A program made the position numbers and the translations under genes. 64,000 nucleotides of DNA from Ascidia mentula (Eukaryota > Chordata > Ascidiacea > Phlebobranchia > Ascidiidae): NCBI GenBank assembly GCA_947561715.1, contig OX387203.1, forward strand, positions 18,910,001 to 18,974,000, written 5' to 3'. Numbering within the stretch: position 1 is the first letter of the stretch; each line of letters starts with the position of its first letter. Shown one piece after another: positions 17,675 through 60,169 of this stretch. The notes under the pieces are model-generated. The model was not told where the DNA came from, ran no database searches, and worked only from the letters and a program-made list of their open reading frames with translations.

Positions 17675-17680
17675 TTTATT
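17675..17680 (-). terminator. Poly(A) signal overlapping the stop codon of receptor gene A
   Basis: AATAAA on the minus strand begins with the last base of the TGA stop codon (17,680-17,682). A 3' untranslated region of only some tens of bases is implied. Confidence 0.6.
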
Positions 17681-17999
17681 CACAGAGCAGTTTCTGCTTC
17701 AACCACATGTAAGTTTTGTCGGTTAGCAACCACAACCACAATTTCCTGTCGCTCTTCCTGTGGTTGAGGTCTGAAAACGGCCTGTAGGACATCCCGGACT
17801 CTATCATAAAGCAGTTTCGGTGCGTTGGAGTAGATGAGGGGATTTAGAGAGCTGTTGATGGGGAGTAGGATGATTGCTGACACAGCGTACATCACTGGAG
17901 GCATAGGGACTCCACCGAAGTTTACAAATGCCATGATGGAAATTGGAACCCAGCAGAGAAAATCGGTAATTATCAGTCGGAGGATTTTCTTTTGCATTT
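17680..17999 (-). CDS. Receptor A exon 14: TM6, TM7 and C-tail
   Basis: Acceptor CGGCAG at 18,000-18,005. Encodes MQKKILRLIITDFLCWVP (TM6), the short third outer loop, TM7 ending NPLIY and a tail of about 50 residues with acidic and Gln-rich stretches, ending in TGA at 17,680. Confidence 0.9.
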
Positions 18000-20900
18000 C
18001 TGCCGAAACTAACAGCATTAATGGAATAATATGTTTGCAAATTCAAATGCGGTTACCTTTGTTTTGTCTTGCCGCCCTGCCATCTCTTGGTCTCTCGTTC
18101 ACTTGCCTGGCACTGGCAGTTGTTTTCTTGTATATCCAAAAATACGTAATTGCCACGAACATGAAGGCCAGGAAGTTAAGAGTAATGATGGCGATTGAAT
18201 ATCCCCATGCCTTGTCGTTGGTCGTTACATACAGTTTGCTAATGCAAACACTGCTGCTGCTGTAATATCTACACATAGATAATTTTGAGGTGATAAAATT
18301 GACGATTTTGCGAGTATAAAAACGAACCCCAAATATCCAGAAATATCAAATAGCTCAGTGTAATTGTAATCCTCAAGAATATCCATAAAATCCATCCAGG
18401 AATTAGCATCATTCACTCGCATGATGGTAGTGTTGAGTACTTGGGAATCGTTGCTTGTGAAGTTGTGTTGGAAAGTTACAAATCGATCCAAGAAGTTATT
18501 CATGTCTGGAAACGCAGCGCCAGTGTCATTCGAAACTGGTTTCACCACCAACATCTACGACAAAATCTTACTAGAAAAGTCGACTGCAACATTGTCAAAA
18601 AACGGATTCTCATTCATCCAAGCTTTGGTTTCAAACAAATGTTGAAGTTGAGTTGTGAGTGGAATAAAAGCAATTGTAAACGAGAATGCCCAGGATAGGA
18701 TAATGGAAAAGATGACAGTTTTCAATTCCGGTTTCAAGGATGCATCGAGTGGCTGAAACAAAAGAGAACATTCACGTGTTTTCATTAAAAACAATCAGTT
18801 TGCAAGCTTAGTGGTTATTTCAAATCGAGGGATAAGGAACATAGTTGTCAGTTCTAATTCTGTCGGACTGAATATTGCTCCTTCTTGCTCTACTCTGTAG
18901 TTCCCAAATTGGGCAAAACTGTGTCATTTTAACAATATTCGTTTTAATTTCGTTTCTCATGTCAGGCTTAGATTCTAGCGATATCTGTAAGAGTGATAAT
19001 AAATAGCTTTCCGAAGATGAAAGATTTCCAGAGAAAAAGTTGTCATAAAATTTTGGAAAGAGCAGTCAACGCTTCAACGAAGTTGGCAATAGCTGACTTA
19101 ACCAAATACAATTGTTTCACTTACGTTTTTCACAGCATACAGTCGGAATATGGTCAACAGAACCATTGTAAACACCGATGTTTCGCTTGAAAGCAAAACC
19201 AATAAACCCATTGTGGTGCAACTTCCGCTTGATCTCCAAATAAGGTCATGGGCACAATAATTTCCGGAGTATCTGACACCAGCGGCTCCCAGCATGATCA
19301 GATAAACTCCCATGAGTAGATCGGAAACGGATAGATTCAAAACGAGTAGATGGTTTGTGCGAAATGCAGCAGATTGTGATTCTGTCGTCGCTAACGTTTT
19401 ACCTTCCATCACCATGACAACCTTAAAACAAATTAAAGGAATATAACACGTGTTCTTATTGTGCAACCAAGACTAAACAAACTTAGTTTAATTTACCAAA
19501 TTTCCGGCAATGGCGAGCATCCCCATTATCCACACAATGGCTCGTAGAAATGGATTTGCAATTAACTCGTATCGTGATGAAAATATGTTTTCGTTGATCA
19601 CTTTTGTATTTGTTGGGCACTCGTCTGACCAATCAGAGCATTCGCCGACTCCATTGAATTTCTATATGGAGTAAATTAAAGAAAACTTTGTAGTTAAGTT
19701 GGTCATATTGGCGTCTGTAAACAGCACAATGCGAAATTAATGTTTTGTATGTAATTGGTGAACAACGGAACTATGGAAATTGGATAAAAAATGTGTACTG
19801 CAATATACATGTGTAGTTTTGTGTACGTGGAAGGCGTGTGACGCGCTAATTGGCCAGAAATCTGGCGACAAAAATTAAAAGTAATTGGTAAACTGGCAGT
19901 TCTCATCTGGTGGCAAACGTTGAGGTGTGCTTGTGTGGTTAAGTGCAAAGAACATGATTTGTGCAGTGGGTCGCACTTTATTTTTTGATATTCGTCCTTT
20001 TTACATTGGGCGCGTTTAAAGTTTCTTTCATATTGACGTCATTTTATTTAATTATGAAAGAAGCCGTCTCTGTAGTTCGACTCCCAACTTTTGTTTTGAT
20101 GGTGAGCCGTCAGTGCAGGGTGAACTGAGCGTTTACCATAGTTGGGGTTGGGAAATTAAGCGCTAAAAAACGGAGAAAAGGTCTTTCTTAATGGGTCCTA
20201 AAACTTCCATACCCGCCCTCCCAATAAGTTTAGTCCGAATTCGGGTTCGCTGAATTAATTTCGGTCACAATAATAACATGCACGGAATCAAAACATCTTT
20301 GCCATTTGACACAAAACTTAAATATTGTTCACATGTGTTTACCTTCTCTTTCTTAACGAACAATGGATCTTCGTTTTCGCAATAAAACCTCCCGTCCTCT
20401 GTGCAATTTATTTCGTCACTTTGATCATCGCAGTTAATTGTGAGGTCACAAACATCCGATTCGTTGACAGAAATCTATCACAAGAATTTAGAGAATACTT
20501 AAACCGTCTTTGTGGTTAACTGTGTTCGAAAGATTGTACAAAGGGCATTATGACAAACAATACTGAACAACAGACACCGATACCTATTTGTCTTTTATAT
20601 TTAAAATACAGCTTTGAAGTGATTTTACTCTAACTCTTGCAATAAGCTGTCATTAATTTTTTGTGGTTTTGTTTACAAGAAATAACTTTACTTTGGCTCC
20701 GTTTAACGTTGGACAGTAGAATCTTCCTTCCTTTGTGCAGTTTTGTTCTGGATATTCGTCACTTTCATCCTTGCAATCGATGAAACCGTCGCATACTTTG
20801 GACATAGGAATATTGAGAAGTCCGTCTTTTGTATCGCAGTGTTTCCGATGTTTGCAAAGTTGAGGATCTTCATCGTGGGCGGAGAATCGATATATGTCAA

Positions 20901-23900
20901 GATTGTAGATCTTATCACCACAATCCCGCCTCCCATCGCACAGTTGTTTGTTGTCGAGCCAACTCCACCCCCACGGCCCATACTATGTAAAACACATCAC
21001 GTGGTTTCTGGCATGTTTTTGAGCGAACAATTTGTTGCTCATGTTGGAAGGAATATTTTTGTTATGATTTTGAATGAATCTTTTATTAGTTATTGTAACG
21101 CTTGTCAGGATTTCGTGGCAGTTCAATGAGGTTTTATCATTAGTAAGTTTTGAAACAGATTTCTCTGCCACAAATCCGTAAATCCAGAGGCGACAATTCA
21201 GCAGTGACCTTAAACTTTTTGCTTGTGTGGCGTAAAAGACACATGACTCACAGCACTAATTCTTGTTTTTTTTCTTTTTTTGTTCACCTGCGTTGTTTAT
21301 TTAAATCGCTGATCATTACATATATGCGCAGATCACATCGCACTTTTGTTTATGTTTCCATCTTTTCTCACACTTTATTTTCACACTTTATTCGTTTTTC
21401 TATGTTTGCCACGTCGTCCCGTAACGCCCCATTAATTTCATGAAAAACCGTAGATTGGTTAATTTACAATTTGGTTTTTACTGAGTATATGCACGTTTTA
21501 CCGTCATTTTAGCCTGTTCATTAAAGAAAAGCCCATTTAGCGAGAGAGACTTTAGCTTCCATATTTAGCCATTAATTTCATGAAAAACCGTTGATTGGTT
21601 AATTTAACGGTGCGAGGAGGTGCTTTGAGTACGATCGAGTTAGTTTCGAAATGGGCGTGGTGCTGTACTGAGAGTGAGTGTGGAAAAACGAAAAGAGTAT
21701 CGATGGTATTGGTTTTTACTGAGTATATGCACGTTTTACCGTCGTTTTAGCCTGTTCATTGAAGAGAAGCCCATTTAACGAAGTTTATCGAACCAGCGTG
21801 AGAGACTTTGGATTCAGTGGTGATCCGTTACTGCAGGGTCCGGGCCGAGGTAGGAAATAAATCCGTGACAACTTGCAAACTCAATTTGTCAGGTAACAGT
21901 GCCCATGTGGGACATAAAAACGTCCAACAAAACACTAACAGCAACAAACGTCATGATAGCAAAGTTGTTCGAGATTTTTATACCTGGAAATGTGATCACT
22001 ATGTGATTGTCATGCATTACAAGATGTTTATTTCTCAAAAGTTTGGCTAAAGTTTTACATCAACCTGGTAAAAAACAAAGAAAATAGCAACATAAGCTTG
22101 ACGAACAAATACAATTTGTGACGAAAGCTAGAATTAAATCTTAAACGTTTGGAATGTGACAACGAAATTGACTTTTCACGCGACTTCTCTTTCAAACTCT
22201 CGCCGTGGTCGCAGTATTTTAAGTACCCACATAAGTCTGCCTCTTATTTTTGTGGCAATTGTTAAACATGTAGGTATCACAAATCAGTACTATATGCCGT
22301 TTGGTGCAACCCAAATACCACATAAATTCCACGCATGTCAACTTTGCACAATAATTGTCTGTGGAAACTCGGTACAAGCACGAGTTCTAACTGTTAACGA
22401 CCTTGAAGGTATTTCTTTAGTAAAGTAATAGGATTTTGTAAATAATTATTATCACGTATTGAAGTCTTGTTCGAATTTTTGCAAAATAAAACTTTGGAAT
22501 TATTTTTTCAATGTTTCAGATAAGCAATCTTGCATGCGAAGCTAGTTTTACTCCCCACTACATCTCATAGTTGGTTTTGAGCAATGGGATTGAATTCCAA
22601 ACTCTGAGGTTTTGAGATTAAGGTACATTACAAACAACAAAGAGAGCGAACAATTTTCCATGATGATACGGAATTTGGTTGTAAATATGTAAGATGTTTT
22701 AACTCGCGATAAAAGTATTCAAACTTATAACTCGCTTCATGTCTCTGATTGTTGGTTTGTTCCACTGTAGTTCAGAAAACTACAAGAACCAAACCATGAA
22801 GGTAAAAAATATTCATTGCGTTCGACTGCGTAAACATTGTTGCAAACGTTTGTTTAAACTGGAGATTGTCCAGCAAGTGAGTAAGTACAATGTGTTGGTA
22901 AGAACCTACAAATGTACGTAAACAACTAAACCATTTTCATTAAGTCTGGTGAACTGACTTCCTACTAAAAGGAAGTTATGTATTCTCACTTACCATACAA
23001 TACCACTCCCCCTGTATGTAGTTGGTTGTTGTTGTTGTTGAGCAGTCGTTCTTCACTTCCTCTTCAGCACTGAAAATATTTGAATGTTTCGCGTTTATTT
23101 TATAATTAAAAATTCAAATTGAATGCAGATGATATTTACTTGCGACCTCTGTAGTAATTAAACAAACGTCTTCAAAACCCATACATGGGAATACAGCTCA
23201 GAACTGACCTAAAATTACGAAAAGAAGTTTATCCTCCAAACACCTGCTGCACTCCACTGAAGCAAAAATGCCTCACACTGGATTTGTTCTCTTGTGATAA
23301 CATTAATAGTATGCCAAGAAATATAAACAATAACAAACATTCGCTTTATCCTAATTGGTTTTGAAACACGGTAGCTGAAGAACACAAACATATTGAAACC
23401 ACTTTAACCCAACAAATAAAACTGGCAACTTGGTACAAAGCAAATTTCCCATGCTTGGTTGTCCATTATTGAAACACTGTTACGTCACAAAGGTTGGTGA
23501 CATGTAGTGCCTAGATATGCGATGACTTGCATTTAAAGTCTTTTTCGACTACAATACTTTGTAATCAAGGCCCAAAACATCTTTATGATGTCATAACAGT
23601 AAAGGCCCGTTTACACTACAGACGATTCCGTGTTTGTTTTATTATGCGCGCGTGCTGAGTTGTGCTGGGATGGGATGTGCCGGTCTGTGCTAGGATGTGC
23701 TCGCTTTTGCTCGATGAGCATAAATTCGGGCACAGTTGGGAACTGCAACGTTTATGCTGTGACGTAATGAGAATGACTTGCAGTTTTGTACCGCCCAGGT
23801 AAATATCACAGTTCTTGGAACGACACAGGAAAATCGCTCGTAAGATGCAATTATCGATATCGTGGTCTCACGCGAACGCATAATTCAAGTGTGTATAAAT

Positions 23901-26900
23901 TCCGTAGTCTTGTGGTCTGAAATTATTCTGCATTGGGCTTTGGCCTAGTGTAGTTTCACTAATCTGTTCTACATTTTGGCGTGCTTGTGGGACCAAAAAC
24001 GTCTGATTCCCACATATCTGTGTTGTGTCTTGGTGTATTCTGAATAAAACAAACTAACCCAATTTTGGTTTTTCTGGAGTCTGGAGTCAGAAGTCGGGAA
24101 ACAAATTCATTTGCAGCTGAACACGTAATCAACAAACAAAACAAACCCCAATTTCTACAATTTGGTGACCCCGTAACTGCAAAGTTTCCTGCAAAATTCG
24201 AAGAAAGAAGATTGAAGATAATTCTTCCAAGAGGAACGACAATCTTGACCGTGAGTACCAAACCAGTTGTACTTTTGGTCGTAATTCTTTCATCATCTAA
24301 CTGCCACGAGGATTCTATTGATAATCTTTCATTAAAATTGCCATCTGGTTGAATATTTATCAAGCTATATTCGAGCAATAATCTCGGCGTTCATTTCGCT
24401 GTTTCTTGGATTGCGCACAGTTGCAAATTGACGCGCAAATCTCTCAAATCTTGCTGAGATTTTCAAGGTTTCTCGCTTTCCATTGTTGGACCGTTGCTAC
24501 TACCATCTCTCTTGTATTCATCAACCGTTCTTCCACATTTTTATCCTTGAATGCTTTCCTGAGGATTCGTCAACTCCAGCCCTGTGTTTTAATCGAGCTC
24601 ATTGGAGATTGTTTTTCGCGTACGCACGGATTTCATCGTTCCCCCCTACAACGTTGGATATTATTCGTGAATGTTCGTTTCACCCTGCACAATTTCCGTC
24701 TCGTTGTTTTGGCCAGGGCGGTCGTCGGGCGTTGGCGTGTCGCTGCGGGAAATCACACCGTCAATTCCGGCGGACCATCACACTGTGTTGGACCGATGCC
24801 AACAGGCAAGAATGAAACCCGACAAAGTCTGTTGCGCGATGGAAGGTGGATTTCATTTTCAAGAACTTTACAGTCGAACCTATGGAATGCTGTTGGTCTA
24901 TAGAATTTCGCTGTCAACACTCTTGGATTATTAAAGGCAATGAACTAAATTTTTACCTGCCATTGCAAACATCAAGGATACTTCAAGAAATCTTGGCTAC
25001 AAACGTCAGAACATTGTCGCAAATTACCCGGTAATGTGCATACTACTTTTGTTTCTACTCTTTTAAGCAATGCCTAGCCCTCAGTGGTTATGTAATACTA
25101 ATCCCCTTATGTTCACTTTCTGTAAAAGGGTTTTTAAACTTTGTTAAGTCTTATTGTCACCGAAACGTTAGTTAATTTTATTCCCTGCGTAATTGACGTC
25201 TGTTAAATGTGAAATGTGGATTCAACCCTTATAACGTGTCTGCATCAAAGTCAGCACGGGGCCTGACACCTTTATACTACATGGCGCGAAATTAAGCAAG
25301 GTCGCCGGATATGCCTCCTCACACATCATGTCTGAAGCGCCAATAGGAAAAATCCTTGGTCTAGTTTTGTTTTGGTTTGATGAAGCACGTAACTGCTGAT
25401 TGACATATTTTACCCATGGTTTTGTTGTTTGGCCATTGTTTTGTGACATGTACTTTGACAAAGCTAAAATATCACTTTTCTTCTTATTCTCTTTTTCTCT
25501 TTTATATCGTTCTTTTGCCTGTTATGGAAAACACTTTTTGGGGCGTGGCTATTGTAACGTTTATGCTGTGACGTAATGAGAATGACTTGCAGTTTTGTAC
25601 CGCCCAGGTAAATACCACAGTTCTTGGAACGACACAGGAGAATCGCTCGTAAGATGCAATTATCGATATCGTGGTCTCACTCGAACGCATAATTCAAGTG
25701 TGTATAAATTCCGTAGTCTTGTGGTCTGAAATTATTCTGCATTGGGCTTTGGCGTAGTGTAGTTTCACCAATCTGTTCTACATTTTGGCGTGCTTGTGGG
25801 ACCAAAAACGTCTGATTCCCACATATCTGTGTTGTGTCTTGGTGTATTCTGAATAAAACAAACTAACCCAAGTTTGGTTTATCTGGAGTCTGGAGTCAGA
25901 AGTCGGGAAACAAATTCAATTGCAGCTGAACACGTAATCAACAAACAAAACAAACCCCAATTTCTGCAGAACATTTCAGCACACATTGATGCGAAAGTGC
26001 AAGGCGACTGCTTCAAAGAAGAGGACGTATATTATTTTGGTTTGTGGTTGTGTGATGTGACCGCGTTTGACATGTGAGCGATTGTTTTGAGCGCACGAAA
26101 TGGCGAAATAACTGAATTACAAAGCAGTGTGTGGAACGGCGTCTCAGCGGGATGCTGCTGTGGAAAACCATTGTCCTGGTTCAATTATACCATCTTTGTT
26201 TTCATTATCTGTAGTGCTACCTTGCGTCGTAAAAAATATCTAAAACAGTAACTGCCTTAAGTATGTAACACAGTACATGCCTTAAGTATGTAACACAGTA
26301 CATGCCTTAAGTATGTAACACAGTACATGCCTTTTGTTGAAGAATATGTACAGCCAATAGCAACAACTTCAATTTGAACCTATAATATCGCTGGCGGGGC
26401 CGAGAAATGCAAGGCAATTATCAACGTAACTTGTAACTTGCACTTGTCGGTTTCGTGTTCGATTATTCCAGTAGTGTAAACACCGTGTGTGCCAGACTGT
26501 GCTGTGCCGTGCCAAACTGTGTTCGTGTGTAAACGGGCCTTTAAGGAATAGGTATTTTTCCTGCAGCGGCGAAACACATCCTTAACACCTGCATTAGTTT
26601 ATGAGTCGTGCCAAAGAAAACAAGTCATGTATTATTTACAGACACTTAACACATATTACACTATTGCAAGTCATAGATTCCTAGTTACGCAATGGATGTC
26701 AGTGATTTCAATCCAAAGAACAAACTAATGCTTTATCACTTACTAATGAAATTTGCCACAATCTTTGGTTTTCCCACTTTGACAAAAACATTCATCACTT
26801 TTATCGGGACAGTCGGTGACGTCATCACACACATTTGACCTTGAGATGATCATTGGGTCATTTGTACATTGAAAACATGAACGATGATTAAATGTCTGAG

Positions 26901-29900
26901 AACTTCGAATGTCTCTGCAAATGAAGTCCATTCTTTTTGAATAAGAACTAATGATGTTTTCAGTGAAAAATTTTTTCTTTACAATAAACTGCGTTTGACA
27001 CGAGGTTATTTATATTGTAACATTACAAGTTCATTCTGTCTTATCTTAACCGGAAGATACTTTCAACCAACCACAACGTTTCATCAGTACCTGGCATCTC
27101 CATTCTCCGAGGTGTAACACAAATCAGATTTATCATCGCAATCCGCAATGCCGTCCCATAGAAACATCTGCGGAAGATTGCAATTCCTGCCATTCCGAAC
27201 ACATTTGAATCCATGTCCATTATTCCAGTGTTGGAAAGCTGGGCAGTCGTTGCAAGGATCGCCATCACAAACAGTCGAACGTTTCCAACAAGAAGAATTC
27301 GGACACTGGAAGTGGGAGGTGCAGATGTCACACAGCGTTTTACCAACACAATTGATCATTCCTTTGCAAAACTCCATCACTCTTAGGGCGCATACTTTGT
27401 TTGCATTGAAGTCGTCCAACTTATTGTCGCAACTGTAACAAAAGCAATGTATTACGTCATATAACAATAGTTTCGGGAGATTTGTGTTTGTAAAGAATCG
27501 CCATGGCTGATTATCTGCAAATGTTAGGTTTTGTTTTAAATAAACTAAATTAATGCCAACTAATCATGCACGATTGTGTATGCAGATGTGTGAATAACAA
27601 TACACAATCTACGACTTCACAATAATTTCGCGTAACATCTGCTGAAAAAAAAATAACTGAAAGCAAATTGGAGCCAAAATTATAAATTTTGTGAGCTGTA
27701 AACAGTTGACCACTGTTTCGTACTATAAGGTCTCATCAGTGTAGCTTGGTGCGACTGTTGTAAACGATCATGCCGACCATCCGGTCAGGCAAATACTTCT
27801 ACATTGTGGTGACTATACGGCCACCGTCATCCGTTGGACTATAGGGCACCAAACTAGGTGCATCCATACGGAGAAAACAAGGTGGAAGAAAACAATTGGA
27901 ATCAGGTTATTATTCGTGTCTAGAACTCTGCCAAGCAATAGCAAATGTATCAAGTCTGCAACGGACGACAACCTTGACGTTCAAGCCCGCTTTATCCATG
28001 AGCTATAAAACGAACTTCTTGAGTTCATGAAAGTATCTCAGATGACCATAATGTGTACGGTGGCAAGAGATTGGTGATAATGCAAGCATAAGTACTCGCC
28101 CCAAACTCTATTCCCGAGCTCTTGCTTGTTGGAAAAAAACAATACAGTTGAGGTGATGCAAGAAGGGAAACGACAGACGCCCGACTCGTATCCCATCCTG
28201 GGTTCAAATCCCGGGGAGATATCGCCACAACTCCAGTGGTTCCTACTGAAGCATCAACGCAACCAGTTGCCACATCCCCCCCAAAGTCAACTGTGCGGGA
28301 CGACGGCATTACCGAAATGCGGTCATACAAACGGAAGAAAACATCGTACTGCCAAACTACATACGCAACATCAGGCAAGCATCCTATATGTCTATGTGGC
28401 AAAGCTCATTCAAAATATCGCTGTGACGACTGGGCTCCGGATGAAGCCCATCCCGTTGCAACAACACAAAGTGCCAGTGCTTATTGATTAGTTGAACATG
28501 TGGCACATGTTATATTCTAATGCCCGATGAGAAGGTTGTGTGTAATATATGAGGCAATAATACTAAATGAATTCAACACAACCCGTTTTTAATCAGCCAA
28601 TATCTTGCTCGTTTGTTATTGCTTTTGACAATGGCGCCTCCTTCGTAGATACGTGTGTGCATTTTGGACTTCCGGTTCCATCCTCTTAAACTCGGCGCCT
28701 CTGCACGGATTGGTTGTTACGACGCGGTCGACATCCCCCTCTTTGTTGACCTCTCACTTCTCTCTCCTTTAAAACATTATTGCAAACCCCGCATACTGGA
28801 AACCCCCAACTTTCCCTTATTGAATACAACCTTGGAATGCCCATAGCTAAAATACTTGACTTTGGGATCAGACCCTCACTGTCATTTCTGCACAACCACA
28901 CTTTAAATCTTTAAACATCTATTTCACGACTGCCCATCCATCCAGCTCTTACTAACTCTGGCAAACAAAAACCCCCAACGCACTTCTCCTTAACTTTCCC
29001 AAAACTCCCACAACCTATAACACAACCTACGCCACAACCCTTGTGGCCCTTCTGAACACCTCTATGTTGCTATATCATTAGGAAACCCTTAACTGAATCT
29101 GTTATGACCCCCGCCCTTTGAACAAGATCCCCAAAACCTAATCCAGTCACTTAAACATTCTATAAACTTTAAGCTCGTAATCCAGCGGAACAGAGACAAC
29201 ACATTTCCTGAATGTGTCCTGGCCGATATCAAACATTCCATAAATATAAATTAATCAACCTTCTCTTCACCCCATTCTTACATCCGCAAAACTTAATCCT
29301 GTATCATTACTTAATAAGTTCTTAAATTTAATTATTGTTTTTTTCCTTTTTACGTTTAACATAACTTCCTCTTTCTGGCGTTACCGTTTCTACCCTCTTT
29401 AATCTTCTCCCACATTTTTCTTTCTCTGTAATATTATGTAACATGTGTTTTCCGCATTTTGCCATCGTTTATATGATTTCTGTTTAGATTGCTTTGTCTA
29501 AGTTTTTGTGATATTCGTGGTGGCGGATTAGTTTTCCCGTACATAAAAAGAAAAGAAACAGTGGCTATCTGTCTGCTATCACATAATTCATATTATTGTA
29601 TCCACTTAGCTTGCATGCAAGATAAGCCAATCCTGCCAAAATTATCGACAAGAAACTTTTTCAAATTTGCTATCAATCCAAGCAACCATTTCACGTTTCT
29701 GGTTTTACTCCCGCCATTAAAAACTCTTTTTTTACCACGACGGGATTCGAACCCAGGATATCCCGGCCACGATCAGACCTACTTCTTGGTATGGAGGAAT
29801 GGCCAACTTGTCAGCGAATGCAATCGAGCTTCTGAATAATCGACTTACAGGCAACGGGAATATTCAAAAAGGTATGGGTCAAATTTTTGGGGAAGTTTCC

Positions 29901-31777
29901 TGTATATTTTCGCAGAACCATGTTTGCTGCTTGAGTTCGAGTCAATCAGAAAATCTACGTGGGTTTCTGCGACGTCGCATTTAAGGTAGTTTGCGTAGTT
30001 GTGTTGGATTACCGAAGAATTAAAGTGCGCATTTCACAAACAAAAGCTTTTACGTCGGTACGTGCGCCAGGTACTGAATTTATAAGAAAGTAAATCAGAA
30101 TAACATTAAATACGTGCCTGTTGTAAGTGGGTACACACTTTTCGTGCGCTATAATAGTCAATTACTTAACACAAAGTTTTGGAAGTAAATGCATTATGAT
30201 TGTAACGTATTTTTACCACCTACAATATCCAAAATATTTTAACTTTCGTTCAGCGCCAAAAATGTTTCACTGAGGAAACTAATAATAAAGGCACAGAATT
30301 TGACTTCTTCGTATTGCCGGATAATACCACATGTGTAGTAATAATGCCACGTGTTACGTAACAATGTGCTACGTGTTTGGTAACAATGCTCAATTTAAAA
30401 ACAATGTGTTAAACAGGCGAACATGAAACTTTTAGTTTTCTCGGTAAATTATGCAAAACGATTGACGATTACGTTTATTTAAAATTTTGTAAAGTCAACG
30501 CAAACGGCGTGTTGGCCACCCCTGATATAAACCTTTACTTATCTTAGATTAACTCTTTGCGCCACCCACTGGCCACTTCATACCTCAACAACATTATTGT
30601 TACGTGGGAGTGTTTCGCAATCAATAATTTCATTTCAATATTGAAGTAAAATCACTTCTGAATGCATGGGGTTTGAAACTGTCTCCGAACTTAATACAAA
30701 CTATTCAAAATTGGTTATTTCAAGTAAGTCAAACCCTGATAACATCGTCTATTGGTTGGTCAACACAAATACAACGAATGTAGGGAACATATTCAAGTGC
30801 TTTCACCTCATGTAAGGACTGGTGAGGTTTTCAGGATAAGTGGGAAAGTTGGCCGGTTTCTCATCACTTCTGTCACTGCAACCGGGGTAACGAGAACCAT
30901 CACAAAACCACTCAGCCCACACCTTCCTCCCATCATCGCAAGTGAACTCTGCACAAAACACATGAACGTAAATCGATTTGAAATCCATCAAAATTTGTAA
31001 AACTAACCAATATATCAAATTAATTGAGAGTTTATGATTTGTAACAAAATACTTACGTTCGCCATATTTATACCGTGCTGAAGCAATTGTGATGAAGGAG
31101 AGCAGGATTCCAACCACCTTCAACCAATACCTGATAAAAACACAAAGAGTTTATATCTTGCAATGATATATTTCTCTAATTCAGGGGAATGACGTCATCA
31201 TTGATTTTAGTGGACTTTTACAAACTTTATGTCAAGAAAAACTGCAAGGTTATTTAAGTTAACTGGTAACCTCCAAAATGGCTTTTATATAAACTGTCGT
31301 CACTTTTTCAACTATATGTCTGATATAAATACTTTAAACCACGTTTAGTTTACTCCAGCACATAAAAAGGCCCGGCAAATATTGTAAGCAACCGTTTATA
31401 ACCAGATGTCAGATTGTACCTGGTATAATTTTTTGCGCGATATAAACGGACCAAAATTTCGTCCCGTACTCACAGTGCGACAAGCGAAGCCTGAGACACC
31501 GGGCAAGTTTGTGAGACAAATTGATTATTCACTTTGATTCACATGCTAGGCCGAGTTAAACCTAATTCAACAAACCCTAGTCCCAGCCATGATAAGACTT
31601 TGCAGAGAAATAACAACATTAAATAGTTAAAAATGTCCGCGCTTGGTTTGACCCAGGAGAATAATTATTTTCATTATTATCGCGCAAAATGTAGGCTTAT
31701 TTATGATTTTTCCGAGAAAAATACGGTTATTTATTAACTTGAATATAATTTAAATAGCTCACAAACCTTGCTCCCAT
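17680..31777 (-). CDS. LDLa-repeat 7TM receptor, gene A (14 exons, 870 aa)
   Basis: Join, in reading order: 31777-31767, 31130-31057, 30948-30807, 27432-27091, 26914-26744, 23069-22994, 20982-20692, 20474-20343, 19661-19497, 19421-19125, 18752-18572, 18535-18328, 18259-18057, 17999-17680. All junctions are GT/AG and in phase; the total is 2,613 nt with no internal stop. Residues 1-22 form a signal peptide. About 28-450 hold some eight LDLa or LDLa-like modules (Cys pairs with CDG and DxSDE calcium-site motifs). Seven helices lie at about 453-475, 493-515, 534-560, 577-600, 715-740, 770-793 and 800-822. TM6 has FLCWVP and TM7 NPLIY; the DRY position reads RLY. The 7TM core resembles the relaxin-receptor/LGR and molluscan GRL101 group (established family: LDLa plus leucine-rich repeats plus 7TM), but no leucine-rich repeats are present. 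The ligand is unknown. By family it should be a plasma-membrane, G-protein-coupled receptor. Confidence 0.85.
18000..18056 (-). other. 57-bp intron of receptor A with an in-frame TGA
   Basis: The length is a multiple of three, so copy B reads straight through it. Copy A carries TGA at 18,043-18,045. GT/AG ends, phase-1 edges and higher A/B divergence than the flanks (about 6 of 57 sites by eye) support an intron. Confidence 0.7.
18057..18259 (-). CDS. Receptor A exon 13: end of ECL2, TM5, third inner loop
   Basis: 203 nt, acceptor ATTACAG, donor GTAACC. The Cys in SSSVCISKLY is the likely ECL2 partner of the TM3 cysteine. TM5 runs WGYSIAIITLNFLAFMFVA. The inner loop is basic. The next 57 bp are taken as intron, as explained in the findings. 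Confidence 0.85.
18328..18535 (-). CDS. Receptor A exon 12: long second extracellular loop
   Basis: 208 nt; acceptor AACCAG, donor GTTCGT (GTACGT in copy B). It encodes only loop sequence, with five N-glycosylation sequons (NDT, NFT, NDS, NTT, NYT) and an acidic stretch DFMDILEDYNYTELFD. Confidence 0.8.
18536..18571 (-). other. 36-bp intron of receptor A
   Basis: Bounded by GTAAGA and ACCAG. The counterpart in B (53,562-53,598) is 37 bp. A one-base length difference with intact frames on both sides is hard to explain unless it is removed by splicing. Confidence 0.65.
18572..18752 (-). CDS. Receptor A exon 11: second inner loop and TM4
   Basis: 181 nt; acceptor TTTCAG, donor GTAAGA. Starts PLDASLKPELKTVIFS, the counterpart of the proline-containing second inner loop, then TM4 and the start of ECL2. 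Confidence 0.88.
19125..19421 (-). CDS. Receptor A exon 10: TM2 and TM3
   Basis: 297 nt (99 codons), phase 0 on both sides, donor GTAAGT. NLSVSDLLMGVYL is a typical TM2 with the conserved Asp; the Cys in SSGSCTTMG is the TM3 disulfide residue. The helix ends FRLYAV where most class A receptors have DRY. Confidence 0.92.
19497..19661 (-). CDS. Receptor A exon 9: last LDLa half joined to TM1
   Basis: 165 nt (55 codons). GECSDWSDEC closes the last LDLa module, and about 25 residues later TM1 starts (AIVWIMGMLAIAGNL). This shows directly that the LDLa array abuts the 7TM domain. Confidence 0.9.
20343..20474 (-). CDS. Receptor A exon 8: LDLa half-modules
   Basis: 132 nt (44 codons), phase 0 both sides. 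It holds the second half of one LDLa module (VCDLTINCDDQSDEINC) and the first half of the next (GRFYCENEDPLF), so module and exon boundaries are offset. Confidence 0.9.
20692..20982 (-). CDS. Receptor A exon 7: two LDLa modules
   Basis: 291 nt (97 codons), phase 0. Contains QLCDGRRDCGD, then a complete module with SKVCDGFIDCKDESDE, then the first half of a third module (GRFYC). Copy B has 288 nt here, an in-frame one-codon difference. Confidence 0.9.
21130..22993. other. Intron 6 of receptor A, copy-specific repeats
   Basis: About 21.17-22.54 kb has no counterpart in B. It contains two direct repeats: 21,433-21,465 with 21,573-21,606, and 21,473-21,540 with 21,710-21,779 (both with GCACGTTTTACCGTC and AGCCTGTTCATT). 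From 22.54 kb the sequence again matches B (56.16 kb on). No gene is seen. Confidence 0.5.
22994..23069 (-). CDS. Receptor A exon 6: Thr-rich linker
   Basis: 76 nt. A CAACAACAACAACAACC run encodes five to six Thr, followed by the first half of an LDLa module (GEWYCM). Acceptor TTTTCAG, donor GTAAGTG; phases fit exons 5 and 7. Confidence 0.85.
23744..24159 (+). repeat. 5' LTR
   Basis: 416 bp, TGCAACG to TTTCTACA. Contains TGTGTATAAATT (TATA-like) and a later GAATAAAACA (poly(A) signal). Confidence 0.85.
25553..25968 (+). repeat. 3' LTR
   Basis: 416 bp, same length as the left copy, starting TGTAACG and ending TTTCTGCA, followed by the target duplication GAAC. A G-rich tract (TTTTTGGGGCGTGG) just upstream may be the polypurine-like tract. 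Confidence 0.85.
26254..26330 (+). repeat. 25-bp tandem repeat, three copies
   Basis: GCCTTAAGTATGTAACACAG plus TACAT, three times in a row, inside the terminal-inverted-repeat element. A triplet is also present in B at about 58.1 kb. Confidence 0.85.
26744..26914 (-). CDS. Receptor A exon 5: LDLa module
   Basis: 171 nt, acceptor TTTGCAG, donor GTAAGTG. Contains NVCDDVTDCPDKSDECFC. A second in-phase acceptor lies 15 nt upstream (AAAAAG), which would add five residues. Confidence 0.85.
27091..27432 (-). CDS. Receptor A exon 4: Cys-rich part and two LDLa modules
   Basis: 342 nt (113 full codons), acceptor TGTTACAG, donor GTACTG. Cys-rich N-terminal part, then STVCDGDPCNDCP and FLWDGIADCDDKSDLC. 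Duplicated in B at 59,828-60,169 and, in part, at 58,945-59,319. Confidence 0.85.
29737..29790 (-). repeat. tRNA-like 3' half, possible SINE head
   Basis: The minus strand contains CCTGGGTTCGAATCCCG, a good T-arm and B-box, followed by TCGTGGT and a T-rich tail. No matching 5' half with an acceptor stem was found upstream, so this is not an intact tRNA. Confidence 0.35.
30290..30480 (+). mobile_element. Partial hAT-like repeat
   Basis: Contains the block of the family at 14.4 kb with CCACGTGTTACGTAACAATG and TTTGGTAACAATGC, then ACGATTACGTTTATT. Both ends are lost. Confidence 0.45.
30807..30948 (-). CDS. Receptor A exon 3: N-terminal LDLa-like module
   Basis: 142 nt, acceptor TTGTGCAG, donor GTGAAAG. 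Contains FTCDDGRKVWAEWFCDG and CSDRSDE but lacks the last cysteine of a standard module. Phases fit exons 2 and 4. No copy B counterpart lies in the window. Confidence 0.75.
31057..31130 (-). CDS. Receptor A exon 2: signal peptide core
   Basis: 74 nt. The hydrophobic stretch LKVVGILLSFITIASA is a clear signal-peptide core with a likely cleavage after SA. There is no in-frame ATG inside, so the start must come from exon 1. Confidence 0.78.
31767..31777 (-). CDS. Receptor A exon 1: 11-nt coding start
   Basis: The ATG (31,775-31,777) in the context ACCAAAAATGG is followed after eight bases by a GTTTGT donor. The reading MGAR joins exon 2 in phase and completes the signal peptide. It is kept in the duplicate at 40,277-40,287, which supports its function. 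Confidence 0.65.
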
Positions 31778-36510: not shown

Positions 36511-36516
36511 AATGAT

Positions 36517-52700: not shown

Positions 52701-52706
52701 TTTATT
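52701..52706 (-). terminator. Poly(A) signal overlapping the stop codon of receptor gene B
   Basis: AATAAA on the minus strand starts with the last base of the TAA stop codon (52,706-52,708). Confidence 0.6.
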
Positions 52707-53025
52707 TACAGAGCAGTTTCTGCTTCAACCACATGTAAGTTTTGTCGGTTAGCAACCACAAACACATTTTCCTGTTGCTCTTCCTGTGGTTGAGGCCTGA
52801 AAACGGCACGTAGGACATCCCGGACTCTATCATACAGGAGTTTCGGTGCGTTGGAGTAGATGAGGGGATTTAGAGAGCTGTTGATGGGGAGTAGGATGAT
52901 TGCTGACACAGCGTACATCACTGGAGGCATGGGGACTCCACCAAAGTTTACAAATGCCATGATTGAAATTGGAACCCAGCAGAGAAAATCGGTAATTATC
53001 AGTCGGAGGATTTTCTTTTGCATTT
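52706..53025 (-). CDS. Receptor B: TM6, TM7 and C-tail exon
   Basis: 320 nt, same length as A, with FLCWVP and NPLIY. Ends in TAA. Confidence 0.9.
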
Positions 53026-56000
53026 CTGCCGAAACAAACAGCATTTCTGGAATAATATGTTTGCAAATACGAATGCGATTACCTTTGTTTTGTCTTGCCA
53101 CCCTGCCATCTCTTGATCTCTCGTTCACTTTCCTGGCACTGGCAGTTGTCTTCTTGTAAATCCACAAATACGTAAATGCCACGAACATGAAGGCCAGGAA
53201 ATTAAGAGTAATAATGGCGATTGAAAATCCCCATGCCTTGTCGTTGGTTGTTACATAAAGTTTGCTGATGCAAACGCTGCTGCTGCTGTAATATCTACAC
53301 ACAGATAATTTTGGGGCGATAAAATTGAACATTTTGCGATTATATAAACGTACCCCAAATATCCAGAAATATCAAATAACTCAGTGTAATTGTAATCCTC
53401 AAGAATATCCAGAAAATCCATCCAGGAATTAGCATCATTCACTCGCATTATGGCAGTGTTGAGTTCTTGGGAATCGTTGCTTGTGAAGTTGTGTTGGAAA
53501 GTTACAAATCGATCCATGAAGTTATTCATGCCTGTATACGCAGCGCTAGTGTCATTCGAAACTGGTTTCACCACCAAAAAAACGACAAAATATCTTACTA
53601 GAGAAGTCGACTGCAACATTTTCAAAAAACGGATTCTCATTCATCCAAGCTTTGGTTTCGAACAAATGTTGAAGTTGAGTTGTGAGTGGAATAAAAGCAA
53701 TTGTAAACGAGAATGCCCAGGAGAGGATAATGGAAAGGATGACTGTTTTCAATTCCGGTTTCAAGGATGCATCGAGCGGCTGAAACAAAAGAGAACATTG
53801 ACGTGTTTTCATTAAAAGTAATAAGTTTGCTAGCTCGGCGTTCGTTTCAAATCGTGGGATGTTGAACATAGTTGTCAGTTCGAATCCCATCGGACTGGAA
53901 ATTGCTCCTTCTTTCTATACCCTGTAGTTCCCAAATTGGGCAAAACTGCGTCATTTTAACAACATTCGTTTTAGTTTCGTTTCTCATGTCAGGCTCAGAT
54001 TCTAGCGATATCTGTGAGTGTGAAAATAAATAGGTTTCTGGAGATAAAAGATTTCCAGAGAGAAAGTTGTCGTAAAATTTTGGTAAGGGCCGTCACCGGT
54101 TTAACGAAGTTGGCAATAGCTGACTTAATCAAATACAATTGTTTCACTTACGTTTGTCACAGCATACAGTCGGAATATGGTCAATAGAACCATTGTAAAC
54201 ACCGATGTTTCGCTTGAAAGCAAAACCAATACCCCCATTGTGGTGCAACTTCCGCTTGATCTCCATATAAGGTCATTGGCACAATAATTTCCGGAGTATC
54301 TGACACCAGCGGCGCCCAGCATGATCAGATAAACTCCCATGAGTAGATCGGAAACGGATAGATTCAAAACAAGCAGATGGTTTGTGCGAAATGCAGCAGA
54401 TTGTGATTCTGTCGTCGCCAACGTTTTACCTTCCATCACCATGACAACCTTAAAACAAATTAAAGGAATATAACACGTGTTCTTATTGTGCAACCAAGAC
54501 TAAACAAACTTTGTTTATTTTACCAAATTTCCGGCAATGGCGAGCATCCCCATTATCCACACAATGGCTCGTAGAAATGGGCTTGCAATCAACTCGTATC
54601 GTGATGAAAATATGTTTTCGTCAATTACTTTTGTATTTGTTGGACATTCGTCTGACCAATCAGAGCAGTCGCCGACTCCATTGAATTTCTATGTGGAGTA
54701 AATTAAAGAAAACTTTGTAGTTAAGTTGGTCATATTGGCGTCTGTAAACAGCACAATGCGAAATTACTGTTTTGTATGTAATTGGTGAACAACGGAACTA
54801 TGGAAATTGGATAAGAAATGTGTACTGCAATATACACGTGTAGTTTTATATACGTTAATTGGCCAGAAAAGTGGCGAGAAAAATAAGAACTAATTGGTAG
54901 ACTGACAGTTCTCATCTGGTAGCAAACGTTGAGGTGTGCTTGTGTGGTTAAGTGTAAAAAACATGACTTTTGCAGTGGGTCGCACTTTATTCTTTGATAT
55001 TCGTCCTTTTAACATTGGGCGCTTCTAAATTTGTGTTCTTATTGACGTCATTTTGTTTAATTATGAAAGTAGTCGCCTCTGTAGTTCGGTTCCAAACTTT
55101 TGTTTTGATGGTGAGTCGTTAGTACAGGGTGAACTGAGCGTTTACCATGGTTGAGGTAGGCAAATTAAGCGTTAAAAACGGAGAAAAGATCTTTCTAAAT
55201 CGGTCCTAAAACTTCCATACCCGCCCTCCCAATAACTTTATTGCGAATTCGGGTTCGCTGAATTAATTTCGGTCACAATAGTAACACGCACGGAATCAAA
55301 ACATCTTTGCCACAGGACACAAAACTTTAAATATTGTTAACATGTGTTTACCTTCTCCTTCTTAACGAACAATGGATCTTTGTTTTCGCAATAAAACCTC
55401 CCGTCCTTTGTGCAGTGTATTTCGTCACTTTGATTATCGCAGTTAATTGTGAGGTCACAAACATCCGATTCGTTGATAGAAATCTGTCACAGAAATCTGG
55501 GAAATACTTAAACCGTCTTTGTGGTTAACTGTGTGCGAAAGATTCAACAAAGGGCATTATGACAAACAATACTGAACAACAGACAACGATACCTATTTGA
55601 CTTTTATAGTTAAAATACAGTTTTGAAGCAATTTTACTCTAATTCTTGCAATTAAGGAGTCTTGCATTTTTTGTTGACAAGAAATAACTTTACTTTGGCT
55701 CCATTTAACGTTGGACAGTAGAATCTTCCTTCCTTTGTGCACAATTCTTCTGGATATTCGTCACTTTCATCCTTGCAATCGATGAAACCGTCGCATACTT
55801 TGGACATAGGAATATTGAGAAGTCCGTCTTTTGTGTCACAGTGTTTCCGATGTTTGCAAAGTTGAGGATCTTCATCGTGGTTGAAGTATCGAGGTATGTC
55901 ATAATTGCGGATGTGACCATCGCAATCCCGCTTCCCATCGCACAGTTGTTTGTTGTCGAACCTCCTCCCCCACAGCCCATACTATGTAAAACACATCACG

Positions 56001-59000
56001 TGGTTTCTGGTATGTTTTTGAGCGAACAATTTGTTGCTCATGCTGGAAGGAATATTTTTGTTATTATTTTGAACGAAAGGCTTGTCAGGATTTCGTGGCT
56101 GTTACATGAGGTTTTATCATTAGTAAATTTTGATGGAAAACCGTTGATTGGTTAATTTATCAAAAGTTTTACTCCCCACTACATCTCACAGTTGGTTTTG
56201 GGCAATAGGATGGTATTCCAAACTCTGAGCTTTTGAAATTTAAGTACATTACAAACAGTTAACAAATGTACAAAGTGTCAAAGAGCGCGAACAATTTTCC
56301 ATGATGACACGGAATTTGGTTGTAAATATTTAAGATGTTTTAACTCGCGATAAAAGTATTCAAACTTATCCGTAACGATATTACTGGGATGTTTGTTGGC
56401 TACGACGGTGAAGTTCGGTATTACGATGGCTCAACCTCATCAGACACCGGGTTCGTACATCATCCGTAAAGATTATGGCGAAGCGAGATGCGACGAAAGT
56501 GATATCCACCCTAGAGCAGCCGAATACAACGCGCTTTGGTGGAATTAGCTACACCCTGTGTTTTATAGCAACGAAGTAGGTGTAGAGCGGTTATTGTGAT
56601 GATGTCATTGAATGTTGCCCAATAGTATATAACAGCATATGTACAACGTAATCTTTTTACATGCAACAGTGTTTGAAGTGATCGCGATGGCGCCACAGAC
56701 AGGAACATTTTGAATTGAAATAAATGCATGATCTCGGTACTGTGACGTTGTCGTATCTAACACAAACATCTTCGAGACACAGGTATCCATGTAATTGCGC
56801 AGTGTGACTTTCTTTGATCATATAAGAATGAATCAATGTATTAAAAAATCATATCATTGTGCTTCGTGGATTAGTTCGCTTTGAAACGAACAATTTTAAT
56901 TGCAAAACCACAACATTGGTTGTAACTCGCTTCATGTCTCTGATTGTTGGTTTGTTCCACTGTAGTTTAGAAAACTACAGGAACCAAACCATAAAGGTAA
57001 CAAATATTCATTGCGTTCGACTGCGTAAACATTGTTGCAAACGTTTGTTTAAACTGAAGTTTGTCCAGCAAGTAAGTAAGTATATTGTGTTGGTAAGAAC
57101 CTACAAATCTACGTAAACATCTAAACCATTTTCATTATTTCTGGTAAACTTATTTCCGACTAAAAATAAGTTATGCATTCTCACTTACCCTACACCACAA
57201 CTCCCCCTGTATGTAGTTGGTTGTTGTTGTTGTTGAGCAGTCGTTCTTCACTTCCTCATCAACACTGAAAATATTTGACTGTTTCGGGTTTATTTTATAA
57301 TTAAAAACTCAAATTGAATGCAGATGATATTTACTTGCGACTCCTGTAGTAATTAAACAAACATTTTTGAAACCCATACATGGGAATTCAGCTCAGAACT
57401 GACCCAAAATTACGAAAGGAAGTTTAACCTCAAAATACCTGCCGCACTCCACTGAAGCACAAATGCCTCACACTGAATTTGTTCTCTTGTTATCACATCA
57501 ATAGTATGTCAAGAAATATAAACAATACCAAACATTCGCTTTATCCTAATTGGTTTTGAAACACGGCAGCTGAAGAACACAAAGATATTGAAATCACCAA
57601 AGTCTTTTTCGACTACAATACTTTGTAATCAAGGCCCAAAACATCTTTATGATGTCATAACAGTAAAGGCCCGTTTACACTACAGACGATTCTGTGTTTG
57701 TTTTATTGTGCGCGCGTGCTGAGTTCTGCTGGGATGGTATGTGCCGGTCTGTGCTTGGATGTGCTCGCTTTTGCTCGACGAGCATAAATTCGGGCATAGT
57801 TGGGCACATTTCAGCACACATTGATGCGAAAGTGCAGCGCGACTGCCTAAAAATGTAGGACGTATATTATTTTGGTTTGTGGTTGTGTGATGTGACCGCG
57901 TTTGACATGTGAGCGATTGTTTTGAGCGCACGAAATGGTGCCGTAACTAAATTACAAAGTGGTGTGTGGAACGGCATCTCAGCGGGATGCTGCTGTGCTG
58001 GAAAACCATTGTCCTGTTTCAATTATACCATCTTTGTTTTGATTATCTGTAGTGCTACCTTGCGTCGTAAAAAAATATCTAAAACAGTAACTTCCTTAAA
58101 TATGTAACACAGTAAATGCCTTAAGTATGTAACACAGTACATGCCTTAAGTATGTAACACAGTACATGCCTTCTGTTGAAGAATACGTACAGCCAATAGC
58201 AACAACTTCAATTTGTACCTATGATAACGCTGGCGGGGCCGAGAAATGCAAGGCAAGAGTCCTTAAAAATTATCAACTTAACTTGTCACTTGCACTTGTC
58301 GGTTTCGTGTTCGATTATTCCAGTAGTGTAAACACCGTGTGTGCCAGACTGTGCTGTGCGGTGCCAAACTATGTTCGTGTGTAAACGGGCCTTTAAGAAA
58401 TGGGTATTTTTCCTGCAGCGGCGAAACACATCCTTAACACCTGCATTAGTTTACGAGTCGTGCCAATGAAAACAAGTCATGTAGTATTTACAGACACTTA
58501 ACACACCTTACACTATTGCAAGTCATAGATTTCTGGTGACGCAATGGATGTCAGTGGTTTTAATCCAAAGAATAAACTAATGCTTTATCACTTACTAATG
58601 AAACTTGCCACAATCTTTGGTTTTCCCAGGTTGACAAAAACATTCATCACTTTTATCGGGACAGTCGGTGACGTCATCACACACATTTGACCTTGAGATG
58701 ATCATTGGGTCATTTGTACATTGAAAACATGAACGATGATTAAATGTCTGAGAACTTCGAATGTCTCTGCAAATGAAGTCCATTCTATTTGAATAAGAAG
58801 TGATGATGCTTTTAGCGAAACATGTTTTCTTTACAATAAACTGCGTTTGACACGAGGTTATTTATATTGTAACATTACATAAGTCCATTCTGTCTTATCT
58901 TAACTGAAAGATACTTTCAACAAACCACAACGTTTCATCAGTACCTGGCGTCTCCATTCTCCGAGGTGTAACACAAATCAGATTTATCATCACAATCGGC

Positions 59001-60169
59001 AATGCCGTCCCATAGAAACATTTGCGGAAGATTGCAATTCCTGCCATTCAGAACGCATTTGAATCCATGTCCATTATTCCAGTGTTGGAAAGCTGGACAG
59101 TCATTGCAAGGATCGCCATCACAAACAGTCGAACGTTTCCAACAAGCTGAATTCGAACACTGGAAGTGGGAGGGGCAGAGGTACTCACATGGGGAATTCC
59201 CCAAACAATGAGCGAGCTTGTCGCAGATTTCATTTTTTGAGTTACAGGAAATGTTGGCTTGATAAATTTTGTTGTAACAGACTCCATTATTGTCGAAACA
59301 ATTACAACGTGGTTTAGAACTAAACAAAATTGATAGTTTATTTGCATCAACGAAATAAAGGTCTTTTCAAACCTACCCGAAATACACTTCCTTGTTCTTG
59401 ATGTATTGCTCATGGAATTTTCCATTACAACCGCATTCATCACTCATATCAGGGCAATCTATGACGTCATCACAAACACTTGACCTTGAGATGATCATTG
59501 AGTCATTTTTACATTGGAAACACAATCCTTCTTTCATGGATGAAAAGGTACGAATATCTCTGCAATCACAAATTTGTTTACAGATGCAATATTTCACCAC
59601 AAGCAAGCAGTTATCGCTGTTCTTTGTTAACATTTATAACCATAAAACCACTAAGCTCATTTGACTAAAACTATATTCATATTTGCAAATGTTTCAGTTT
59701 TTTCGTTTTCACTGCAATAGGAAGAGTGACGCCGAATAATGGTAAGATAAGGAGCACAGAGGTAGAGGTTAGTCTGGAGCAGTGCTGGCAAGTACGCATA
59801 TACAAAATGCAATCAAAAACGAAAAACCTGGCATCTCCATTCTCGGAGGTGTAACACAAATCAGATTTATCATCACAATCGGCAATGCCATCCCATAGAA
59901 ACATCTGCGGAAGATTGCAATTCCTGCCATTCCGAACACATTTGAATCCATGTCCATTATTCCAGTGTTGGAAAGCTGGGCAGTCATTGCAAGGATCGCC
60001 ATCACAAACAGTCGAACGTTTCCAACAAGCTGAATTCGGACACTGGAAGAGGGAGGGACAGATTTCACACAGCGTTTTTCCAACACATTTGATCATTCCT
60101 TTGCAAAACTCCTTCACTCTTAGGGCGCATACTTTGTTTGAATCGGGGTAGTCGAACTTATTGTCGCAA
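52706..60169 (-). CDS. LDLa-repeat 7TM receptor, gene B (13 exons in window, 5' end missing)
   Basis: Join in reading order: 60169-59828, 59559-59377, 59319-58945, 58766-58596, 57264-57189, 55981-55694, 55483-55352, 54688-54524, 54448-54152, 53779-53599, 53561-53354, 53285-53083, 53025-52706; 2,941 nt, in phase, no stop before TAA. It is the duplicate of gene A with the same 7TM exon lengths. Differences: two extra LDLa exons (59559-59377, 59319-58945), one codon less in exon 7, and four rather than five loop sequons in exon 12. The counterparts of exons 1-3 (signal peptide) are not found up to 64,000, so the gene either starts outside the window or has lost its start. The donor of the first exon here is GTTTTT, weaker than GTACTG in A. 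Confidence 0.82.
53083..53285 (-). CDS. Receptor B: TM5 exon
   Basis: 203 nt as in A. The following 57 bp are open in frame here, so an unspliced product could also be translated. Confidence 0.85.
53354..53561 (-). CDS. Receptor B: long ECL2 exon
   Basis: 208 nt, donor GTACGT. Four sequons (NDT, NFT, NDS, NYT). Confidence 0.8.
53599..53779 (-). CDS. Receptor B: TM4 exon
   Basis: 181 nt; donor GTAAGA opens a 37-bp intron with a T-run before the acceptor. Confidence 0.88.
54152..54448 (-). CDS. Receptor B: TM2-TM3 exon
   Basis: 297 nt as in A, with only a few residue changes. Confidence 0.92.
54524..54688 (-). CDS. Receptor B: LDLa end and TM1 exon
   Basis: 165 nt. Contains GDCSDWSDEC before TM1. 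Confidence 0.9.
55352..55483 (-). CDS. Receptor B: LDLa half-modules exon
   Basis: 132 nt, phase 0 on both sides, with VCDLTINCDNQSDEIHC. Confidence 0.9.
55694..55981 (-). CDS. Receptor B: two-LDLa exon
   Basis: 288 nt, one codon shorter than A, in frame. QLCDGKRDCDG and VCDGFIDCKDESDE. Confidence 0.9.
57189..57264 (-). CDS. Receptor B: Thr-rich linker exon
   Basis: 76 nt, with the same CAA run as A. Confidence 0.85.
57664..58395. mobile_element. Terminal-inverted-repeat element without insert
   Basis: 732 bp with TAAAGGCCCGTTTACAC ends. It is the empty-site counterpart of 23,600-26,543 and lies in the same receptor intron. Confidence 0.8.
58596..58766 (-). CDS. Receptor B: LDLa exon
   Basis: 171 nt, close copy of 26,744-26,914. 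Confidence 0.87.
58945..59319 (-). CDS. Receptor B: extra exon, duplicate of exon 4
   Basis: 375 nt; acceptor TTTGTTTAG, donor GTACTG. The 3' two thirds match exon 4 closely (STVCDGDPCNDCP, FLWDGIADCDDKSDLC). The 5' third is different and Cys-rich (RCNCFDNNGVCYN). Confidence 0.82.
59377..59559 (-). CDS. Receptor B: extra exon, duplicate of exon 5
   Basis: 183 nt; acceptor GATTGCAG, donor GTAGGT. LDLa SVCDDVIDCPDMSDECGC with a new tail (EQYIKNKEVYFG). Confidence 0.8.
59828..60169 (-). CDS. Receptor B: exon 4 counterpart
   Basis: 342 nt, same length and phases as 27,091-27,432. Confidence 0.85.

Follow-up and report, generated by a model that had tools for sequence, protein, structure and literature searches.

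We analysed a 64,000-nucleotide stretch of the Ascidia mentula genome (the window; GenBank assembly GCA_947561715.1, contig OX387203.1, here C71:18910001-18974000) and searched 195.8 Mb of genome for relatives of the genes it holds. Two genes on its minus strand, copies A and B, are members of a strongly expanded family of the LDLRR type, in which an array of LDLa modules is joined to a relaxin-receptor-like class A seven-transmembrane (7TM) domain. The most unusual feature of this family is hypervariable loops in two of the LDLa modules, one in exon d and one in exon a, which were absent from an earlier reading of the window made from its letters (the sequence-only reading). The architecture is already known and named; the hypervariability is the new part.

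Hypervariable loops and family size

The variable stretch of exon d lies between the Cys of '..DC' and 'DEDPQLC'. We kept 55 of 57 copies for comparison (the match in L040 was partial and L096 gave none), 54 of them unique, and none was lost to a frameshift or stop. The exon-d part is 89 residues long in 42 of the 55 copies (range 83-97), and the flanking cysteines are retained in 53 or 54 of 54 sequences. The proportion of nonsynonymous sites that differ (pN) is 0.31 in the loop and the synonymous proportion (pS) 0.155, as compared to 0.053 and 0.058 downstream. A codon model yields a ratio of nonsynonymous to synonymous rates (omega) of 3.5 for the loop, tested against 1 (likelihood ratio 43, p = 6e-11, n = 54 unique sequences). 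Omega is 7.6 for the copies on C71 alone (p = 2e-8), 2.3 for those on C52 alone (p = 3e-4) and 5.1 for copies of equal length. Among copies A, B and a third copy, C, the loop has a pN of 0.26-0.38 and a pS of 0-0.04, with an intron divergence of 0.083-0.094 in the same copies; A and B differ here by 14 nonsynonymous and 0 synonymous changes. These comparisons of predicted exons show positive selection on the exon-d loop.

For the LDLa module of exon a the evidence of positive selection is weaker. All 23 sequences are in frame with a pN/pS of 1.59, and the codon model for this module, which is variable from Cys 4 to Cys 5, suggests an omega of 1.65 (p = 0.045, n = 22 unique). The exon-a query included its loop; the exon-d query started after the loop. 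By the same codon models exons b2, c, e and the 7TM core are under purifying selection, with omega at 0.2-0.45 (0.36, 0.21, 0.45 and 0.33, respectively), and the linker after exon a stands at 0.85. Of all core segments, pN/pS is lowest, at 0.07 in 16 copies, in the half-LDLa module and linker beside TM1.

Copies entered the comparisons because they matched well in the lists and are not a random sample. The pN/pS sets retained 23/23 sequences for exon a, 22/23 for exon c, 15/17 for exon d and 15/17 for exon e. For the 7TM core 16 of 30 distinct copies were used, after the removal of 3 duplicate loci; 6 copies with stops or missing exons and 8 with unequal exon lengths were left out. Removal of identical sequences left 22 exon-a modules, 18 exon-c, 16 exon-e and 16 core sequences for the codon models. 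The b2 comparison kept 19 of 25 copies (six C52 copies gave partial matches), and its omega comes from the 16 of b2 type.

Copy counts were taken from 150 listed matches and are lower bounds. At least 96 of these match the TM6-7 exon at ≥80% identity, aligned over 98 or more of the exon's 106 residues; A and B are included. Most are found on C71, between 15.8 and 19.5 Mb of its 19.9 Mb, or on C52, between 14.6 and 23 Mb of its 23.2 Mb. The two copies counted by the sequence-only reading thus hold for the window; the genome carries roughly a hundred close paralogues and more distant LDLa-7TM groups. Among 30 distinct 7TM cores, 24 are complete, with six exons free of stops; of the other six, two exons are missing from one and stops interrupt five. 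We therefore reject a family of pseudogenes. Stops occur in 3 of 150 listed exon-d matches and 13 of 150 listed TM6-7 matches. One more distant LDLa-7TM group has many single-frame members, some with frames above 1100 codons. Single long frames with an intronless 7TM domain are also seen in L044, L045 and other LDLa-7TM groups, many of them clustered on C2, C69 and C70; an NCBIfam scan of L045 gave no matches.

Domain layout and exon structure

For copy A, on the minus strand from 31777 to 17680, a script joined 14 predicted exons in phase to 2622 nt, encoding 873 amino acids with no internal stop, and GT and AG are present at all 13 introns. The protein starts with Met and a hydrophobic stretch, the predicted signal peptide; the exon order is Met, signal peptide, a, b, c, x, d, e, TM1, TM2-3, TM4, extracellular loop 2 (ECL2), TM5 and TM6-7. 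The domain search of the joined protein that the sequence-only reading had called for returned only 7tm_1 (3.1e-18) and Ldl_recept_a (6.1e-16, 5 stretches) from Pfam at E ≤ 1. With an ad hoc motif list we counted eight acidic motifs of the LDLa type, matching the roughly eight modules first reported; those at residues 132 and 288 are atypical. A stricter LDLa pattern matches 9 times in the window, 7 of these within LDLa exons, and 0-2 times in each of 20 shuffled windows. The last LDLa module stops about 23 residues ahead of TM1.

The sequence-only reading had placed no leucine-rich repeat (LRR) between LDLa and TM1, and this observation is confirmed; the interpretation built on it is partly supported. 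Copy A does have large introns (30.8 to 27.4 kb and 26.7 to 23.1 kb) in which LRR exons could hide and be spliced in, the layout being then an artefact of reading DNA. We reject such exons and regard this explanation as scarcely credible, since the LRR-like motifs lie within the shuffle range: 4 in the introns and upstream region of copy A (50 shuffles, mean 5.9, max 13) and 6 in the part of copy B inside the window (50 shuffles, mean 3.4, max 9), with no strict LRR motif in either. The membrane-proximal LDLa module is divided across the junction of exon e and the TM1 exon, and an LRR block at this place would break the module. In the sister gene L044 (C69:876800-882200) a single open frame, 1646 codons or longer, encodes 21 LDLa stretches and then a 7TM domain; Pfam finds no LRR in this frame, which runs colinear with copy A through exons b, c, d, e and TM1. 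Because LDLa and 7TM stand in one unspliced frame there, the layout needs no splicing and does not result from LRR exons having been overlooked. As far as predicted frames can tell, the LRR-less LDLa-7TM layout is real.

The sequence-only reading had its exons 4-9 joining in phase. The model as a whole does join in phase, without stops; exon c, however, cannot join exon d directly. Exon c ends in phase 2 and exon d starts in phase 0, and thus something lies between them. An alternative acceptor within exon d was rejected, since by eye it would give copy B a stop. The candidate link is exon x, a 76-nt exon (tttcag/gtaagt) conserved in copies A, B and C; its splice sites are strong in A and B. 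It has 70 matches in the genome, 0 with a stop, and those checked by coordinates fall at receptor copies on C71, C52, C1, C2 and C70. L044 holds 118 residues (1055-1172) between its c-like and d-like parts. Two further candidates that fit the phase lie in the intron after exon c. They proved to belong to repeats scattered over many chromosomes, one with 94 matches (6 carrying stops) and the other with 104 (2 carrying stops), and we rejected them. The stretches concerned lie at 26444-26516 and 23617-23689 of the window. Since these repeats also rarely carry stops, the lack of stops alone is weak evidence for exon x. Among several phase-fitting candidates, exon x is likely the c-d link.

The sequence-only reading had been unable to match the architecture to a named receptor. 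It was in fact described in Ciona by Kamesh et al. 2008 (PMC2396169), who reported 14 LDLRR-GPCRs (G-protein-coupled receptors) with 1-10 LDL-A repeats, relaxin/INSL3-receptor-like transmembrane segments and no LRR, for which the majority of expressed sequence tag matches came from blood tissue and haemocytes and which were still orphan in 2008. Copy A likewise has between one and ten N-terminal LDL-A modules (eight motifs, 5 Pfam stretches), no LRR by Pfam on copy A and L044 or by the intron motif scan, and RXFP1 as its best PDB match. The A. mentula family shares with the Ciona receptors the tandem LDL-A repeats, the lack of LRR, the relaxin/INSL3-receptor-like 7TM domain and a lineage-specific expansion in a tunicate; it differs in having about a hundred close copies, as compared to 14 confirmed members. 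The hypervariable loops and positive selection seen in A. mentula were not found in the passages of PMC2396169 consulted. No earlier description of hypervariable LDLa GPCRs turned up in a search covering part of the literature, and a paper on Botryllus histocompatibility (PMC12065747) never mentions GPCR or LDL.

GRL101 and other type C2 LGRs of Lymnaea, arthropods and echinoderms also combine multiple LDLa modules with a related 7TM domain; GRL101, however, is the LDLa-rich member of a group of LRR-bearing receptors (Veenstra 2021, PMC8286064; Roch and Sherwood 2014, PMC4079206), with six LRRs in Lymnaea (PMC8286064), and none were found in copy A or L044. The 7TM domain of copy A is nearest in the PDB to RXFP1 (7tmw, 7.7e-29), followed by 8w1z, which we take to be from Trichoplax, and by FSHR, LHCGR and TSHR. 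RXFP1 and RXFP2 (type C1 LGRs) thus share with copy A the nearest solved 7TM domain and the presence of LDLa; they have a single LDLa module and an LRR domain, whereas the copy A family has many copies and no LRR was found between LDLa and TM1 of copy A. In RXFP1 the single LDLa module is required for activation and the LRR domain is thought to bind the hormone. The glycoprotein hormone receptors FSHR, LHCGR and TSHR, and 8w1z, are alike in having a related 7TM domain. Glycoprotein hormone receptors have an LRR ectodomain and no LDLa.

Possible roles of the receptors

Whether the family is a recognition-receptor repertoire on a conserved scaffold, that is, an expanded LDLRR-type family with specificity-setting loops, seems to us evenly balanced on the sequence evidence. 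In such a repertoire, protein or peptide ligands from outside the cell would bind to the LDLa array, each paralogue would owe its specificity to the two variable loops, and the half-LDLa and linker, conserved and fused to TM1, may relay binding to the 7TM domain, by analogy with the LDLa module of RXFP1. The likeliest use would be to recognise a wide variety of molecules (in immunity, self/non-self discrimination or chemosensation) rather than a single hormone. A more specific proposal, that a large chromosome-clustered repertoire of hypervariable, G-protein-coupled receptors with the two LDLa loops as specificity regions serves self/non-self or pathogen recognition in blood cells, is possible, though we consider it less likely than not. 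Large recognition GPCR families such as odorant and chemokine receptors vary mainly in the 7TM domain and its loops. If true, the repertoire would have a different design, with the 7TM domain and much of the ectodomain fixed and two LDLa loops diversified, in the sister group of vertebrates, and the loops would offer a testable handle on LDLRR-GPCR ligands.

The receptors could instead bind lipoproteins or other large conserved protein complexes, with copies differing mainly in place and time of expression, a hypothesis published for Ciona (PMC2396169) and in keeping with the several conserved, acidic LDLa modules; a shared conserved ligand, however, leaves unexplained both the omega of 3.5 in one loop and the roughly one hundred close copies, and we consider it unlikely. 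Another explanation is that the variable loops are unconstrained spacers, or products of local hypermutation and gene conversion, with no bearing on specificity. Whole-codon gaps are tolerated in the exon-d loop and its pS is raised over all copies too (0.155 vs 0.058 downstream), as this would have it, but relaxed constraint predicts an omega near 1 where a significant excess was found overall and on C71 and C52 separately, hypermutation should lift pS like pN where the loops of A, B and C show 9.5-14 nonsynonymous and 0-0.5 synonymous differences, and the flanking cysteines are retained, which together make the explanation quite doubtful. Relaxin/insulin-like peptide receptors that lost the LRR and kept a single peptide hormone as ligand would fit the closeness of the 7TM domain to RXFP1. 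We find this improbable: the LRR domain, the presumed hormone-binding part of RXFP1, was not found in copy A, copy number and hypervariability are unfit for one hormone, and RXFP/LGR3-type receptors are reported to have been lost in urochordates (PMC11863921).

Several points weigh against a recognition repertoire. The exons are predicted from DNA, and expression, ligands and function are inferred. The exon-a result is marginal, its p value being uncorrected for several tests, and outside its loop exon d shows no clear constraint (omega 0.87, p = 0.34; 1.1 in C52 alone). In a second subfamily on C2 the matching loop has an omega of 1.45, which is not significant (p = 0.49, 10 unique sequences; 11 of 12 used, L148 dropped), with 0.28 elsewhere. 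The codon test used one tree per segment, and likely gene conversion between copies can inflate it; kappa was held at its free estimate in the null. An AlphaFold2 model of L045 aligned with L044 (two rows) has a mean predicted local distance difference test score of 38, too low for the model to bear on loop exposure or contact with the transmembrane domain. Extrapolated exon ends keep AG/GT in 30/32 loci for TM1, 30/32 for TM2-3, 32/33 for TM4, 26/33 for ECL2 and 31/33 for TM5 (duplicates included). Several C52 matches recur exactly 137,477 bases apart, either a recent duplication or an assembly artefact, and the copy count may therefore include duplicated assembly stretches.

Copy B, coordinates and surroundings

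Copy B (minus strand, 60169-52706) has the same organisation as copy A with an extra cassette, c1-b2, and its fitting signal-peptide and first LDLa exons sit just outside the window. A and B are 91.8% identical over 17208-21078 and 52257-56077. Exons c1 and b2 begin and finish in phase 2, and thus the cassette, present in B and C and not in A, could be gained or lost with no damage to the frame. A b2-type exon adjoins exon c in all 14 C71 copies sampled. The Met-exon sequence of copy A is found again in L009, upstream of B, and in L043, upstream of C. At 1496-5874 of L009 a signal-peptide and exon-a pair occurs twice, about 4 kb apart, with identical translation. The TM4/ECL2 intron is 36 nt in A and 37 nt in B (18536-18571 and 53562-53598), a difference of one base.

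Predicted exons and variable loops of copies A and B (window positions)
Copy	Feature	Positions	Strand	Basis or remark
A	Exon 1, ATG GGA GCA AG (start codon)	31767..31777	-	In-phase join with signal-peptide exon
A	Signal-peptide exon	31057..31130	-	Joined model; relatives genome-wide
A	Exon a, first LDLa module	30807..30948	-	LDLa motif; Pfam LDLa on open reading frame 1.9e-4, below curated cut-off
A	Variable loop of exon a, Cys 4 to Cys 5	30881..30901	-	LDLa module of exon a: pN/pS 1.59, omega 1.65
A	Exon b, two LDLa-type motifs	27091..27432	-	Colinear with L044 residues 917-1021
A	Exon c, LDLa module, few changes among copies	26744..26914	-	Omega 0.205, n = 18 unique sequences
A	Exon x (76 nt), likely c-d link	22994..23069	-	Conserved candidate; two rivals rejected as dispersed repeats
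A	Exon d, variable LDLa half-module and more conserved LDLa module	20692..20982	-	Joined model
A	Hypervariable loop of exon d, 15 residues	20875..20919	-	pN 0.31, pS 0.155; omega 3.5
A	Exon e, LDLa module and first part of membrane-proximal module	20343..20474	-	Omega 0.45
A	TM1 exon, second part of last LDLa, linker, TM1	19497..19661	-	LDLa-half and linker pN/pS 0.07
A	TM2-TM3 exon	19125..19421	-	Joined model
A	TM4 exon	18572..18752	-	Followed by 36-nt intron
A	Long ECL2 exon	18328..18535	-	Joined model
A	TM5 exon	18057..18268	-	Joined model
A	TM6-TM7 and tail exon with stop codon	17680..17999	-	Joined model
B	Exon b1	59828..60169	-	Joined model
B	Exon c1, cassette not found in A	59377..59559	-	Joined model
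B	Exon b2, cassette not found in A	58945..59319	-	Joined model
B	Exon c	58596..58766	-	Joined model
B	Exon x	57189..57264	-	Conserved 76-nt candidate
B	Exon d	55694..55981	-	Sequence comparison
B	Variable loop of exon d	55877..55921	-	Sequence comparison
B	Exon e	55352..55483	-	No stop, GT/AG introns
B	TM1 exon	54524..54688	-	No stop, GT/AG introns
B	TM2-3 exon	54152..54448	-	No stop, GT/AG introns
B	TM4 exon	53599..53779	-	No stop, GT/AG introns
B	ECL2 exon	53354..53561	-	No stop, GT/AG introns
B	TM5 exon	53083..53294	-	No stop, GT/AG introns
B	TM6-7 exon	52706..53025	-	No stop, GT/AG introns

The 5' block of copy A (31377-33991) is duplicated between A and B at 39993-42406, at ~86-92% identity. 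No receptor body was seen among the open reading frames of 34-40 kb, and thus the repeated block would be an orphan first-exon block. Open reading frames on the minus strand at 36155-37464 resemble, by eye, a retroelement reverse transcriptase and an integrase fragment. An Rfam scan of the whole window gave 0 matches. Two long tandem arrays lie near copy A, one of a 32-bp unit (~190 copies, 360-6510) and one of a 190-bp unit (~38 copies, 7194-14349). In the genome, Glyco_hydro_6 (GH6) scores above the Pfam cut-off at two places, with 32 bits at one and 27.8 bits at the other, which carries a stop; animal GH6 is a marker of tunicates.

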